Source of the DNA: an uncultured Arenicella sp.
GTDB taxonomy: Bacteria > Pseudomonadota > Gammaproteobacteria > Arenicellales > Arenicellaceae
DNA: 37,940 nt
Reading direction: 5' to 3'
Assembly: GCA_937918955.1 (NCBI GenBank)
Contig: CAKZRZ010000278.1
Location: forward strand, 1-37,940
How positions within the stretch are numbered: the stretch's first letter is position 1; each line of letters starts with the position of its first letter. Made by a program: the position numbers and the translations under genes. The notes beneath the pieces were generated by a model. That model ran no database searches and was not told the origin of the DNA. It was given only the letters and a program-made list of their open reading frames with translations. Positions 9,503-16,484 of the stretch are shown in pieces.

Positions 9503-9739
9503 TTATTCGCCTTCTTCGAAATCGATTCGGACGGCCTTTGACGGCACAACCGTAGAGACTGCGTGTTTGTAAATCATCTGGTTTACGGTGTTGCGAAGTA
9601 CAATTACGAACTGATCAAATGATTCAACTTGCCCTTGAAGTTTGATGCCGTTTACTAAATAAATTGATACTGGAATTCGTTCCTTTCTAAGCGCATTTAA
9701 GAACGGATCTTGAAGCGCTGTTCCTTTATTCTGTGCCAT
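9503..9739 (-). CDS. hfq: RNA chaperone Hfq
   Basis: Sm-like hexameric RNA chaperone that pairs small RNAs with mRNAs. 78 aa. Sm1 motif: [25 protein letters not shown] split over about 26-50; Sm2: [14 protein letters not shown] (57-70), with the poly-U-binding K58/H59 equivalent to E. coli K56/H57. Rim basic residues (R18, K19, R21) are kept. The acidic C-terminal tail (DFEEGE) is short, as in Pseudomonas, without the long disordered tail of E. coli. ATG start; the Shine-Dalgarno is weak in an A-rich leader. It is separated from miaA by an unusually long 552-base gap and so probably has its own promoter. Confidence 0.97.
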
Positions 9740-13240: not shown

Positions 13241-15052
13241 TTATCGAGGAATCTTTAAGGTTTGCCCCAGCATTACAGTGCGCGTGCGCATTTTGTTTTC
13301 ACGCATTATCGCATTGATTGACACGCCATACTGCTCGGCAATTTCAGACAAGGTATCGCCTCGTTTAACTTTATGCGTCACCAGCACAGACTTAGCTTTA
13401 TTTGAACCGCCACTAGGTATCGTCAAACGTTGCCCTAAATAGACAGCATCTTTAGACAAGCCATTTTCTCGTTTAATCGCTTGAATAGTGACATTATAAC
13501 GCGCTGAAATTTTAGATAAAGAATCTCCACGCCTAACAACATGGATTGAGTTATTAGCTTGTCTAGATGGCGTTGAGCTACTGGCCGACACCTTCAATTT
13601 ACGCCCTAAAACGGCAACATTGCTCTTTAACTTGTTGATTTTTTTAAGCTCTTTAACGGTCATCGAGTATGTTAACGCAATGCTTGAGAGTGAGTCACCG
13701 CGTTTTACTGTGTGAGTTCTAGGCCTAGCGTTTGCGCTGCTGTTATTTGCTCCAGCAAGCTTTGGCGACGAATAGCTTGCTTGCGAATAATAAGGTGTTT
13801 GCTCAAAGTAGTCGCCCAATGCGGTATGGATCGCGCGAGCAATTTTCTTTTGATACTTAGTCGTTCGAAGCCGTTTTTCCTCATTTAAGTTAGTAATGAA
13901 ACCTGTCTCAACCAAGATTGACGGTATATCGGGTGATTTAAGTACCGCAAACGAGGCTTGCTCAACTCGCTTAGAATGAAGCCTGCCTACATTCGATAAT
14001 TCTTTAAGAACTCTGCCGCCCAAGTTCACGCTCTCACTAATAGTGTTTGTCATCGACAAGTCCACCAAAACTTGAGCCAAAACTTGGTCTTTGTCTGCGA
14101 GGCTCACTCCACCTATCAAGTCGGCCGCATTCTGCTTTTTAGCCAGTGCTCTGGCCATGGCACTTGTGGCACCACGTTGAGATAAAGCGAACACCGACAG
14201 ACCGTTCGCGCTTTTTTTATCAAAGGCATCAGCATGAATGGAAATAAAGATATCGGCATTTCTCTCACGGGCCAGAGTGCGCCTGCGCGAAAGGTCTACA
14301 TAATAGTCACCCTCTCGAACTAAAAAGGCCTGCATTCGCGGGTCGTTATCTAAGATCTTTTTTAAATGCTTCGAAATCGTAAGCGTAATCTCTTTTTCAC
14401 GACTACCTCGATGACCCAATGCACCAGGGTCTTCACCTCCGTGCCCAGCGTCAATCGCGATAGTTAGCTTTCTTGCTTGTTTTGGCGCCTCAAGTATTAT
14501 TTGTGGTGTTTGCGGCGCTGTGTCTGCCGTTGTTGTTGCCTCGGGCATCCCATCGGAGTTCGTGTTTGCCTGCGAACTGGTTGCTTGCTGATCGATCAAA
14601 TCAATAACTAAGCGATAGCCGTACAACTCGTTCGGCGTTAATACAAAAGCATTCGCCTGCATAGGCTTAGATAACTCTAATACCAATCGAAGTACATTTT
14701 TTTGAGGAATACCAGAACGTAAATTTACGATGTGCGAGTTACTCGCTTCAATATTTGGAAGCTTCGTTTGTAAGGCCGCGTTCTCAATATCAACAACCAA
14801 GCGATCAGGGTTCTTCAGACTGAACATTGTGTGTTGAATATTCTCCGACACATCGAGAACAACGCGAGTTTTTTCCCGCGAGTGCCATAAGCGAATGCTT
14901 TCAATTTTGTTATCTACCGCAGAGGTTGAACTCTCGGCTTGCGCCAATACCGATTTAGTTGTGCATAAGCAGGCAATTGCCAGCGATAACGCTAGCAGCA
15001 AAAAAAATATGCGATTTTTTGCTAAGTGGCTAGTTAGCCTTGAATTATTCAA
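13241..15052 (-). CDS. amiB: Secreted N-acetylmuramoyl-L-alanine amidase with AMIN and three LysM repeats (AmiB type)
   Basis: Periplasmic zinc amidase that cuts the peptide from muramic acid during daughter-cell separation. 603 aa. A signal peptide (about 1-39, cleavage near VLAQA) is followed by an AMIN targeting domain (about 50-155), an Amidase_3 domain (about 195-420) and three LysM repeats (about 446-490, 502-546, 557-602), each with the RGDSLS/RGDTLS core. Zinc ligands fit H204 (DAGHGG), E219 and H273 (SIHAD); catalytic Glu is E382 (VETGF). A segment around 285-340 matches the position of the autoinhibitory helix that EnvC/NlpD-type activators displace. Start TTG at 15052: it gives a complete signal peptide, and no ATG or GTG lies between it and the upstream in-frame TGA. 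Three LysM repeats are more than E. coli AmiB has. Confidence 0.93.
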   Translation of the reverse strand: MNNSRLTSHLAKNRIFFLLLALSLAIACLCTTKSVLAQAESSTSAVDNKIESIRLWHSREKTRVVLDVSENIQHTMFSLKNPDRLVVDIENAALQTKLPNIEASNSHIVNLRSGIPQKNVLRLVLELSKPMQANAFVLTPNELYGYRLVIDLIDQQATSSQANTNSDGMPEATTTADTAPQTPQIILEAPKQARKLTIAIDAGHGGEDPGALGHRGSREKEITLTISKHLKKILDNDPRMQAFLVREGDYYVDLSRRRTLARERNADIFISIHADAFDKKSANGLSVFALSQRGATSAMARALAKKQNAADLIGGVSLADKDQVLAQVLVDLSMTNTISESVNLGGRVLKELSNVGRLHSKRVEQASFAVLKSPDIPSILVETGFITNLNEEKRLRTTKYQKKIARAIHTALGDYFEQTPYYSQASYSSPKLAGANNSSANARPRTHTVKRGDSLSSIALTYSMTVKELKKINKLKSNVAVLGRKLKVSASSSTPSRQANNSIHVVRRGDSLSKISARYNVTIQAIKRENGLSKDAVYLGQRLTIPSGGSNKAKSVLVTHKVKRGDTLSEIAEQYGVSINAIMRENKMRTRTVMLGQTLKIPR

Positions 15053-15314
15053 TGACTCGAGTGTTTTGGTGTGATGAGTTAATCAACTTAGAACGATTTA
15101 AGAGGTATTTTAAGGAGATATCTCACTATTATCTTATTCAGTAATTACAACAGTTTTTAGTGGCCAGTGCGAGAAAATATACAGAGCGTTAAGAAAGGAA
15201 ATTTTGAGAAAAAAGTTAGGATCGAGGAATAAAAACGCCCGAATAAAAACCAAGCGAGTGTAATTTTAAGAACTTAATACATTGCTTAACAAAAATGGAG
15301 AGCACTCGAAGAGA

Positions 15315-15449
15315 GAGCCAAGACAGCTAAGGGGGATGGGGGTGCTGGCTTGACTCAAGGAGTGTCAGGGAATTTAGGTCAATTCTCCTAACCCAAAGAG
15401 GGTAAGTCTTCGGTTGTCGACAAATCGCTAACCATACCGACCTGTCGAC
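15315..15449 (-). ncRNA. Candidate small RNA, unit A (sibling of unit B)
   Basis: Minus-strand order: stem GTCGACA/TGTCGAC (15443-15449 with 15416-15422); hairpin 1 CCGAAGA-CUUACCC-UCUUUGG (15393-15413); hairpin 2 UUAGG/CCUAA (15374-15391, 8-base loop); hairpin 3, a 13-bp stem with one G·U and one mismatch (15344-15356 with 15315-15327) and a 16-base loop whose core is CCCCCAUCCCCC. Hairpin 1 needs a G·U pair, which becomes an A·C mismatch on the plus strand, so the minus strand is favoured. No U-run follows hairpin 3 directly. A longer-range CGAGTG/CACTCG pair (15303-15308 with 15255-15260) ahead of GGTTTTTATT could end the transcript instead. The ends are estimates. No Rfam family was recognised from memory. 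Confidence 0.55.
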
Positions 15450-15477
15450 GAACGAGATATTCTCACATCTTTTCTCC

Positions 15478-15496
15478 ACATTATGTCAAATAATGT
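15478..15496. promoter_or_regulatory. Palindrome upstream of unit A, possible operator
   Basis: Perfect inverted repeat ACATTAT-GTCAA-ATAATGT. On the minus strand its centre reads TTGACA (15484-15489), a consensus -35, but no good -10 lies at 16-18 bases (the nearest AT-rich hexamer is GAATAT at 21). It is a plausible regulator site for unit A, not proven. Confidence 0.35.
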
Positions 15497-15557
15497 CAGA
15501 AATACGCCACAAATGTGAAATAAACATCACCTGTCTTATATAAGTCTTATAATTAAC

Positions 15558-15592
15558 TTTTCTGCGGTTTTCCTCCATATTACCGCAGAAAA
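15558..15592. other. Perfect 11-bp hairpin with a Shine-Dalgarno-like loop
   Basis: TTTTCTGCGGT (15558-15568) pairs exactly with ACCGCAGAAAA (15582-15592) around a 13-base loop. The loop reads AATATGGAGGAAA on the minus strand (GGAGG) and contains CCTCC on the plus strand. Neither side is followed by a U-run, so it is not a standard terminator. Because the pairing is perfect, it does not tell which strand is transcribed. Confidence 0.5.
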
Positions 15593-15633
15593 CTCTTACG
15601 GAATTTGAACTATTTCTTGACTTTCTCGAGCTC

Positions 15634-15676
15634 GATTCTCTTCAAAAGACCTTTCGGAAAGACAGGTCTGAGAACC
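15634..15676 (-). other. Long bulged hairpin between the two RNA-like units
   Basis: On the minus strand GGTTCTC pairs with GAGAATC (with one G·U), followed inwards by AGACC/GGTCT and UUU/AAA around a CCG loop, with bulges of 4 and 6 bases. The G·U becomes an A·C mismatch on the plus strand, again favouring minus-strand RNA. Confidence 0.4.
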
Positions 15677-15776
15677 ATCAAAGTTTTACTAACACAAAGG
15701 AGAACTAACGCACCTTAACAGCTACAACAGCAGTCTGACTAAGTTTGTACTTTATAGGAGCTAGAGGGCTTGGGCG

Positions 15777-15836
15777 ATAAAAAAACCGAGCCGGCAAAAT
15801 GGGGATGTTAGGAGGAGGAATATACCAGCCCGGTTT
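15777..15836 (-). terminator. Terminator-like hairpin 3 of unit B
   Basis: 13-bp stem AAACCGGGCUGGU/GCCGGCUCGGUUU followed on the minus strand by TTTTAT (seven T in all, three of them in the stem). The loop is unusually large (28 bases) for a plain terminator, which suggests the loop itself has a role. On the plus strand three pairs become A·C mismatches and no U-run follows. Confidence 0.65.
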
Positions 15837-15925
15837 ACGAGTCATGTTGCACCAAATAAAATGCAACTCAAAAGAGGGTAAGTCTTTTGTCTTGGCCTAG
15901 AAACAAGTCCGATCACACAAAACGG
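15777..15925 (-). ncRNA. Candidate small RNA, unit B, with terminator
   Basis: Minus-strand order: hairpin 1 CAAAAGA-CUUACCC-UCUUUUG (15869-15889); hairpin 2 GUUGCA/UGCAAC (15846-15867, 10-base loop); hairpin 3, a 13-bp stem with three G·U pairs (15824-15836 with 15783-15795), topped by a 28-base loop containing CCUCCUCCU and CCCC and followed by a U-run. It shares 16 identical bases with unit A (15395-15410 and 15871-15886), the same loop sequence and the same spacing from hairpin 1 to hairpin 3 (32 against 36 bases). The CCUCCUCC loop could pair with Shine-Dalgarno sequences, as in known C-rich-loop sRNAs. The 5' end is estimated from the promoter-like pair upstream. About 150 nt. Confidence 0.62.
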
Positions 15926-15931
15926 AAATTT

Positions 15932-15960
15932 CCTATAGACACAAATACAGTCTATCTAAA
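15932..15960 (-). promoter_or_regulatory. Candidate promoter and operator for unit B
   Basis: On the minus strand TTTAGA (15955-15960) and TATAGG (15932-15937) are 17 bases apart, each 4 of 6 to sigma-70 consensus. The inverted repeat ATAGAC-N9-GTCTAT (15935-15955) fills the spacer and would suit a repressor. Confidence 0.4.
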
Positions 15961-16022
15961 AATCAGGTATAACACTGTTACACAATGTAAAGCTAAACCG
16001 ATATAGCTGAAGGTTTTCTCGA

Positions 16023-16484
16023 CTAGATGTGTTGCAAAACAATATTTCGATGATTTGGTGCAGAATCGAATATTTTATTCAGTCTTATCTCAATATTTGC
16101 AGGTTGCAAGAGTCCCTCACCCTTTTCGGGCCACTCGATCAGAAACAGGCTGTGATTTGCCCACAGGTCCTCTAAACCTAAGAATTCCAACTCACCCGGA
16201 TCTTCAAGCCGATATAGGTCCATGTGATAGACTGTACCCTGCTCCACTTGATACTCCTGAATCAAATTGTAAGTCGGGCTGGTAACATCACCAACATAAC
16301 CTAATGAGTTAATAATTGACTTCACTAGACTCGTTTTCCCAGCACCCAAGTCACCAATTAAATAAACACAACTAGGGAAGTTCAACATCAACGCGATTTT
16401 AGAACCAACTTCACAGGTTTGTTCAAGACTATTGGATTCAAAGTTAAATTGGCGCTCATCAAGGCTGGAAGTCGAATTAATCAC
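16023..16484 (-). CDS. tsaE: tRNA threonylcarbamoyladenosine biosynthesis ATPase TsaE
   Basis: P-loop ATPase that works with TsaB, TsaC and TsaD to make t6A at A37 of ANN-decoding tRNAs. 153 aa, normal size. Walker A GDLGAGKTS (44-52), switch region SPTYNLIQEY, then YHMDLYRLEDPGELEFLGLE and LIEWPEKGEG, all diagnostic of the YjeE/TsaE family. The start is GTG at 16484: in-frame upstream codons are ATT, ATC, CCA and then TAG, so no ATG is available, and the next Met is near residue 32. No clear ribosome binding site. It diverges from queG with only 37 bases between starts. nnrE, which usually sits upstream of tsaE in this locus, is missing. Confidence 0.93.
   Translation of the reverse strand: MINSTSSLDERQFNFESNSLEQTCEVGSKIALMLNFPSCVYLIGDLGAGKTSLVKSIINSLGYVGDVTSPTYNLIQEYQVEQGTVYHMDLYRLEDPGELEFLGLEDLWANHSLFLIEWPEKGEGLLQPANIEIRLNKIFDSAPNHRNIVLQHI

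Follow-up and report, generated by a model that had tools for sequence, protein, structure and literature searches.

The window, by which we mean the whole 37,940-nucleotide stretch of DNA analysed here, is contig C278 of the genome of a marine, Arenicella-like gammaproteobacterium (G000); the nearest matches to its TsaE among named records are two uncultured Arenicella contigs, at 81% and 65% identity. Between tsaE and a gene for an N-acetylmuramoyl-L-alanine amidase, both on the minus strand, lies the interval 15053-16022. We call the amidase gene amiC after its best NCBIfam match, amidase_AmiC, which scores under that model's cut-off. Past amiC the gene order continues with mutL, miaA and hfq, the last at 9503-9739 of the same window. 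Plasmid records searched with the intergenic region gave no match. The initial annotation had placed two small-RNA-like units on the minus strand of this interval, at 15315-15449 and 15777-15925, and both are found there: unit A at 15315-15449, about 260 bp upstream of amiC and on the same strand, and unit B, with its structured part at 15779-15925 and a predicted start further upstream (around 15942), some 80 nt past tsaE and again on the same strand.

Unit A folds into four hairpins and unit B into three main ones. At the predicted 5' end of unit A, hairpin H0 (15416-15449), identified by covariation and by its spacing from a putative -10 element, carries UGGUUAG in its loop. It is followed by H1 (15393-15413; CCGAAGA-CUUACCC-UCUUUGG), a middle hairpin H2 predicted by folding (15364-15392), and H3 (15315-15356), whose loop holds CCCCCAUCCCCC and which gives way to a CUCUCU-like tail with no U-run. 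Unit B has H1 at 15869-15889 (CAAAAGA-CUUACCC-UCUUUUG), H2 from the fold at 15846-15867, and at 15783-15836 an H3 that forms a terminator stem with UUCCUCCUCCU and AUCCCCAU in its loop. In both units, folding and covariation support H1 and H3. Much of the initial description survives this closer look: the 16 bases said to be identical at hairpin 1 are AAGACTTACCCTCTTT, present in both units, and unit B does end in a U-run, of seven U (15779-15785). The three-hairpin plan holds for H1, H2 and H3, while the span of unit A also contains the previously undescribed H0. The 13-bp terminal stem does not hold, being 12 pairs with one mismatch in unit A and 14 pairs in unit B, and of the H1 stem differences described as compensating, one pair is truly so and the other is a G-U/A-U change. 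Predicted RNA sizes are about 125-170 nt across the related units described below, and about 143 and 165 nt in the window.

Relatives were sought with a 15-mer pattern of the shared block and with a covariance model, R1, built from 10 units; a covariance-model search of related genomes had been proposed in the initial annotation, and it found related units at the same locus. In all, the tsaE-amiC locus holds 15 units, spread over 12 of the 18 genomes of the genus: two each in G000, G013 and G016, and one each in G003, G006, G007, G009, G010, G011, G012, G015 and G017. A unit was counted if it lay between matches to TsaE and AmiC, with the exception of that in G012, which adjoins amiC near a contig end while tsaE is on another contig. 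From the 12 genomes in which R1 first gave matches, G004, whose match lies elsewhere, was dropped, and G010 (E 0.011) was added. With filters off, R1 has no match at the locus in G001, G002, G004, G008 and G014, five of the 17 assessable genomes of the genus; G005 is left out of these because no tsaE was found there. The candidate pairs in G000, G013 and G016 are homologous, each unit scoring 79-96 bits with R1, a model in which all six units were part of the training set.

The folds of these units are unlikely to be accidental. Compared with dinucleotide shuffles, the minus-strand fold has a z-score of -6.6 for unit A and -2.8 for unit B, against -0.8 and +0.8 for the plus strand, and across all 15 units the sense fold lies between -2.5 and -8.8 and is below the antisense fold each time. 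In a 15-row alignment (A4), 97.3% of the H1 and H3 cells are paired, and the comparison that the initial annotation had suggested, a look among relatives for stem changes that do not compensate, found changes on both sides at 16 of 20 pairs; A4 was fitted to R1, and the training set of that model supplied 10 of the 15 rows, so that these pair counts lean towards structure. Covariation in H1 and H3 is 0.576, compared with 0.288 +/- 0.022 in shuffles (none of 500 equals it) and 0.07-0.21 (maximum 0.209) in slid controls; because the 15 units are related, such shuffle controls overstate significance, those for the upstream motif discussed below included. H0 is present in eight units, which we call A-type, one each in G000, G006, G007, G010, G012, G013, G016 and G017. 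Its alignment (A5) was made with MAFFT and not fitted to structure, and is thus free of the bias of A4; in it 95.6% of cells are paired, with two-sided changes at 9 of 12 pairs. Finally, the stems contain 30 G-U cells against one A-C cell in H1 and H3, and 14 against two in H0, an excess that fixes the sense strand as minus, as the initial annotation had argued from the G·U pairs of the two units. The G-U and A-C counts rule out a plus-strand RNA. Chance folding is ruled out by the fold z-scores, the H1 and H3 covariation and the same cell counts, and the recurrence of related units at the same locus in relatives likewise shows that the units are not a product of chance.

In a tree of TsaE and AmiC, neither of the two main branches of the genus lacks units, a pattern that fits presence in the ancestor and several losses. 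The genomes with two units, G000, G013 and G016, fall in one clade (support 0.83) together with G004, G007 and G015, which suits one duplication and subsequent losses; several inner nodes of this tree have low support. Beyond the genus, R1 gave nothing convincing, whether in 109 genomes of the order, where two matches reached E ~0.004 (G089 and G101), or in 369 sampled genomes of the class, where the one match, in G236, had E 4e-4; stricter filters applied whenever more than 40 genomes were searched. Nor did R1 find a member at 75 tsaE loci outside the genus (best E 0.39), of which 20 came from the order and 55 from the 57 named-record matches, the other two being Arenicella. At 53 of these 75 loci amiC was identified past tsaE; the gap between the two genes is below 300 bp at 50 of them, all but L158, L014 and L038. 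The distribution looks limited to the genus.

Several candidates outside this set were not accepted as members: L149 in G004, a G-rich stem at an ORF end; L096 in G009, in which the terminator part is missing; L171 in G000 (E 8.4); L037 (E 0.39); L098 and L099, the weak R1 matches in G101 and G089; L097 in G015, another terminator with the loop ACCCCAACCCC; and L170 in G236, a C-rich-loop terminator. The 15-mer pattern also matched elsewhere than at tsaE-amiC, L079 being one example, and these matches were folded; the many C-runs past tsaE at L158 looked by eye like repetitive coding sequence. Two of these loci are worth describing for themselves. The terminator-like hairpin of L097 (G015:C6, 1500-1611) lies downstream of an ORF that by eye resembles gluQ and is perhaps another C-rich-loop RNA of the genus, and L170 (G236:C42, ~978-1027), in a different gammaproteobacterial family, is a terminator near an ORF end with the strongly C-rich loop AUCCCUCCCCUCCCUCCUC, perhaps an instance of this design that arose independently. 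At L135 in G014, which has no RNA unit, an extra ORF that by eye encodes a secreted metalloprotease-like protein separates tsaE from amiC.

The initial annotation had recognised no named family, and none of the 4227 families of Rfam 15 reaches its gathering score in the region; at E values up to 10 there are three matches in 15000-16050, all far under their gathering scores. Among openly available papers, a search on Arenicella small RNA returned a single title, on an oligoribonuclease, and one on tandem C-rich sibling sRNAs returned none. We regard the units as an RNA family that is well supported and has no entry in Rfam.

What the members have in common is less a fixed loop than a property of their loops. 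The H1 loop is exactly CUUACCC in 10 of 15 units, the others being AUUACCC (G003), CUACCCA (G009), CACCCC (G010), UAAUCCCCCCCC (G007) and UUAAUU (G017). By eye, a C-run is present in 14 H1 loops, all except that of G017, and 12 units have a C-rich H3 loop, G006, G007 and G012 being the exceptions; the middle hairpin is as a rule not C-rich. G007 has an H3 loop without a C-run and an H1 loop with a long one, and every one of the 15 units has a run of at least three C in its H1 or H3 loop (by eye). The earlier picture of conserved loops on diverged stems must therefore be amended, since neither CUUACCC nor a C-rich H3 loop is universal, but it stands in the form of a C-run in one loop or the other. 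The 3' ends are more variable. A U-run past the terminator, the feature sought as the mark of an Hfq-dependent sRNA, reaches at least five U in six of the 15 units (G000B, G016B, G015, G013B, G006 and G012, by eye); the other nine have other or mixed tails, and six of the eight A-type units have no U-run.

The movement of the C-run between loops would also suit a partner that needs accessible C-runs alone, and thus a sponge: in place of silencing mRNAs directly, the units would sequester some other RNA or else a protein, which could be Hfq or something that binds C-runs or the H0 loop. The H0 loop adds to this, as UGGUUAG recurs exactly in five of eight A-type units, while G007 and G012 each deviate at one position and G017 at two, and there is precedent in CrfA of Caulobacter, described as an sRNA sponge (PMC12559287). 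We nevertheless consider a sponge unlikely: it has no known partner, and the H0 loop is missing or different in seven of 15 units and so cannot be the common function. A kissing contact between GGUUAG of the H0 loop and CUUACC of the H1 loop, which would pair at five of six positions in the window, was rejected as impossible in G017 (by eye).

H0 could alternatively begin a short ORF (AUG GUU AGC...), making the A-type units dual-function RNAs that encode a micropeptide or leader peptide. AUG or GUG stands at the same place in seven of eight A-type units, preceded by GGAGG at 5 nt in G016A and by AAAAGG at 4 nt in G007, and the 15-codon ORFs of G000 and G016 differ at one residue. The distance from the start codon to the H1 region, however, varies from 16 to 21 nt across genomes and takes all three phases, the ORFs range in length between 14 and 78 codons, the start codon is missing from G017, and the H0 stem covaries as RNA. 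We rejected the ORF because its reading phase is not kept, and hold a coding role to be very improbable.

The regions upstream of the units provide a second line of evidence. A Gibbs search of 15 upstream regions with no preset pattern found TGACATTnTTTGACAGnnTG, a TGACA-N5-TGACA-like direct repeat with a 10-bp period. Its log-likelihood ratio of 277 compares with at most 210 in 25 dinucleotide-shuffled sets searched with equal effort, a control that replaces an earlier one in which shuffles of two-base blocks had received fewer restarts; in a reduced set of 11 units from 11 genomes, which lessens the effect of kinship on the score without removing it, the value is 206 against at most 166 in 15 shuffled sets. 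By construction the search puts a site in every sequence, and some, as in G012 and G017, are poor. For unit B the box is TTACATTGTG/TAACAGTGTT at 15971-15990 on the minus strand, with half-sites 10 bp apart, followed after 16 bp by a putative -10, TAGACT (15949-15954); for unit A it is TGACATTATT/TGACATAATG at 15479-15498, with a putative -10 region, GAGAATAT, at 15457-15464 in which the exact hexamer is ambiguous. Across units a -10-like hexamer lies 14-16 bp past the box, with a mean best score of 4.65 against 3.51 +/- 0.22 and none of 2000 shuffles as high, in a 13-18 bp window picked after viewing the sequences. In seven of eight A-type units H0 begins 6-9 nt past this hexamer, where transcription would start.

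That both units have this box suggests that they are transcribed separately under a regulator of the OmpR/PhoB family. OmpR-family regulators read direct repeats about one helical turn apart, as CenR does with TGA-N8-TGA (PMC9275681), and CiaR reads TTTAAG-N5-TTTAAG, which in its csRNA genes is placed 10 nt ahead of the -10 (PMC3091779). The units are arranged correspondingly, with repeated half-sites roughly a helical turn apart ahead of a putative -10, and the sites differ in quality. The box also bears on the idea that unit B is simply where the tsaE mRNA terminates, unit A being a copy of it. Unit B's good terminator, and a predicted start so close past tsaE on the same strand, would agree with such a 3' UTR element. 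The same box upstream of both units, an H1 conserved as well as the terminator stem, and the genomes in which tsaE is followed by amiC without a unit (G001, G004 and G008) argue otherwise, and we give this origin hardly any credence. Further boxes in 18 genomes numbered 54 against 40 in reversed controls, which is near background, and hence no regulator was identified; three of the 54 are the units' own boxes. Inspection of 30 matches that were given a locus, two of them the units' own (L180 and L184), yielded no regulator identity. In two genomes without units at tsaE-amiC, one-mismatch copies of the box (L172 in G001:C3 and L178 in G008:C374) occur at the same intergenic position, flanked by an unknown gene and by one that by eye encodes a TerC-like membrane protein.

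A separate promoter-like block, recognised by motif count and comparison by eye, lies between unit A and amiC (15144-15205, minus strand) and ends in AAAACTGTTGTAAT. If one mismatch is tolerated, 16 of 19 intergenic regions contain its motif AAANCTGNTGTAAT; within the genus the count is 16 of 17, and it includes four genomes without units (G001, G004, G008 and G014). The rest of the block was compared by eye, with TATA- and CTCG-like stretches seen upstream of AAANCTGNTGTAAT, and a regulator may have its own site there. This block weighs on the reading of unit A as part of the amiC 5' leader, where it would serve as a riboswitch or attenuator; the position of unit A on the amiC strand, the terminator-like stem at its end and the conserved synteny would speak for this. 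Set against that are the block itself, conserved between unit A and amiC even in those unit-less genomes, the possibility of two units in series, each with its own box, and the five genomes that keep amiC without any unit. A cis-acting leader was set aside as the main reading on the strength of the conserved block, and we judge it quite improbable.

Known systems offer parallels for parts of this arrangement. The sRNA sX13 of Xanthomonas is described as highly structured and as working without Hfq; it has three stem-loops, and its C-rich loops (CCCC, CCCCC) target G-rich motifs close to start codons. Its gene is chromosomal, at polA, and its homologues are predominantly in one bacterial family (PMC3771888). 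The units resemble sX13 in their high degree of structure, C-rich loops, chromosomal location and homologues in a narrow group, and differ in lying between tsaE and amiC, in occurring also in tandem, in the H0 of the A-type and in the direct-repeat box upstream. Measured against the three C-rich loops of sX13, the units have, by eye, C-runs in 14 of 15 H1 loops, C-rich H3 loops in 12 and a middle hairpin that is generally not C-rich, and A-type units have four hairpins. NmsRA and NmsRB of Neisseria are tandem sibling sRNAs from one intergenic region, with three stem-loops and anti-Shine-Dalgarno sequences (PMC5362039), and sX13 and the NmsR pair are reported to use C-rich or UC-rich stretches against targets that are G-rich or Shine-Dalgarno sequences (PMC3771888, PMC5362039). 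The window units are likewise tandem siblings in one intergenic region. Unlike the NmsR siblings, which share 70% of their sequence, they share mainly H1, and they differ from them in locus and in having C-tracts where the NmsR pair has UC-rich sequences (PMC5362039).

The csRNAs of the CiaRH system of Streptococcus are several related sRNAs under one response regulator, with unpaired stretches complementary to Shine-Dalgarno sequences and AUG (PMC3091779). The likeness is one of related sRNA candidates behind a direct repeat before a -10; our candidates differ from them in belonging to another phylum, in having TGACA-like half-sites 10 bp apart and in carrying their putative pairing sites in hairpin loops. 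The alpha-r8/SisA-D siblings of Caulobacter are reported to have no common promoter motif (PMC12559287), whereas the units here have a box in common. The units could be assigned to none of the named families tried: the Rfam search was negative and the locus differs from that of sX13. To judge by analogy, their build appears to suit the way in which sX13 and other C-rich-loop sRNAs work, and yet they look like a separate family.

The sequences show a conserved structured RNA encoded on the minus strand, duplicated within a clade and preceded by a common box. Because the folded shape and the upstream control site are kept in relatives, the units probably silence mRNAs through their exposed C-rich loops. 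We favour, with reasonable though not high confidence, a model of sibling, trans-acting noncoding RNAs activated by a response regulator, in which each unit would be transcribed from its own minus-strand promoter. An OmpR/PhoB-family response regulator would bind the TGACA-N5-TGACA-like repeat at the -35 position and switch transcription on, as the common box suggests. The exposed C-runs of the H1 and H3 loops may then pair with G-rich ribosome-binding regions of mRNAs, to judge from anatomy and analogy, and such pairing would lower translation of those mRNAs; Hfq, encoded in the same window, possibly takes part. The initial annotation had further supposed a target seed common to the siblings, to which our target searches lent no support. 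The pattern GAGGGTAAG before ATG had 17 matches in seven genomes against six for the reversed control; four of the 17 open ORFs of at least 100 codons, apparently gene-internal, and none reads as a real gene start. The pattern GGGGATGGGG had 17 matches against 16 for the control in six genomes, eight of them the units' own loops, leaving nine; folding nine of the loci from this search brought no target to light.

A more ambitious reading, which we put forward as a possibility of rather low probability, is that of a genus-wide stress circuit in which a two-component regulator drives tandem sRNAs beside a cell-wall amidase gene, with a two-domain A-type and mobile C-run loops directed against ribosome-binding sites. 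We lowered its probability slightly because the H0 loop, exact in five of eight units, is not clearly more constant than the H1 loop. If this reading were true, H0 with its recurring UGGUUAG loop would serve on its own as the place where a protein or a dedicated target docks, and the interchangeable C-run loops would provide a broad activity against ribosome-binding sites that moves from loop to loop during evolution.

The tsaE-amiC locus unites a C-rich-loop design with an apparent response-regulator box, and does so with duplication, loss and loop turnover among close relatives. The genus thus offers a natural series for seeing what selection fixes in such an RNA, a C-run somewhere, and what it lets drift, namely the position of that run and its exact sequence.
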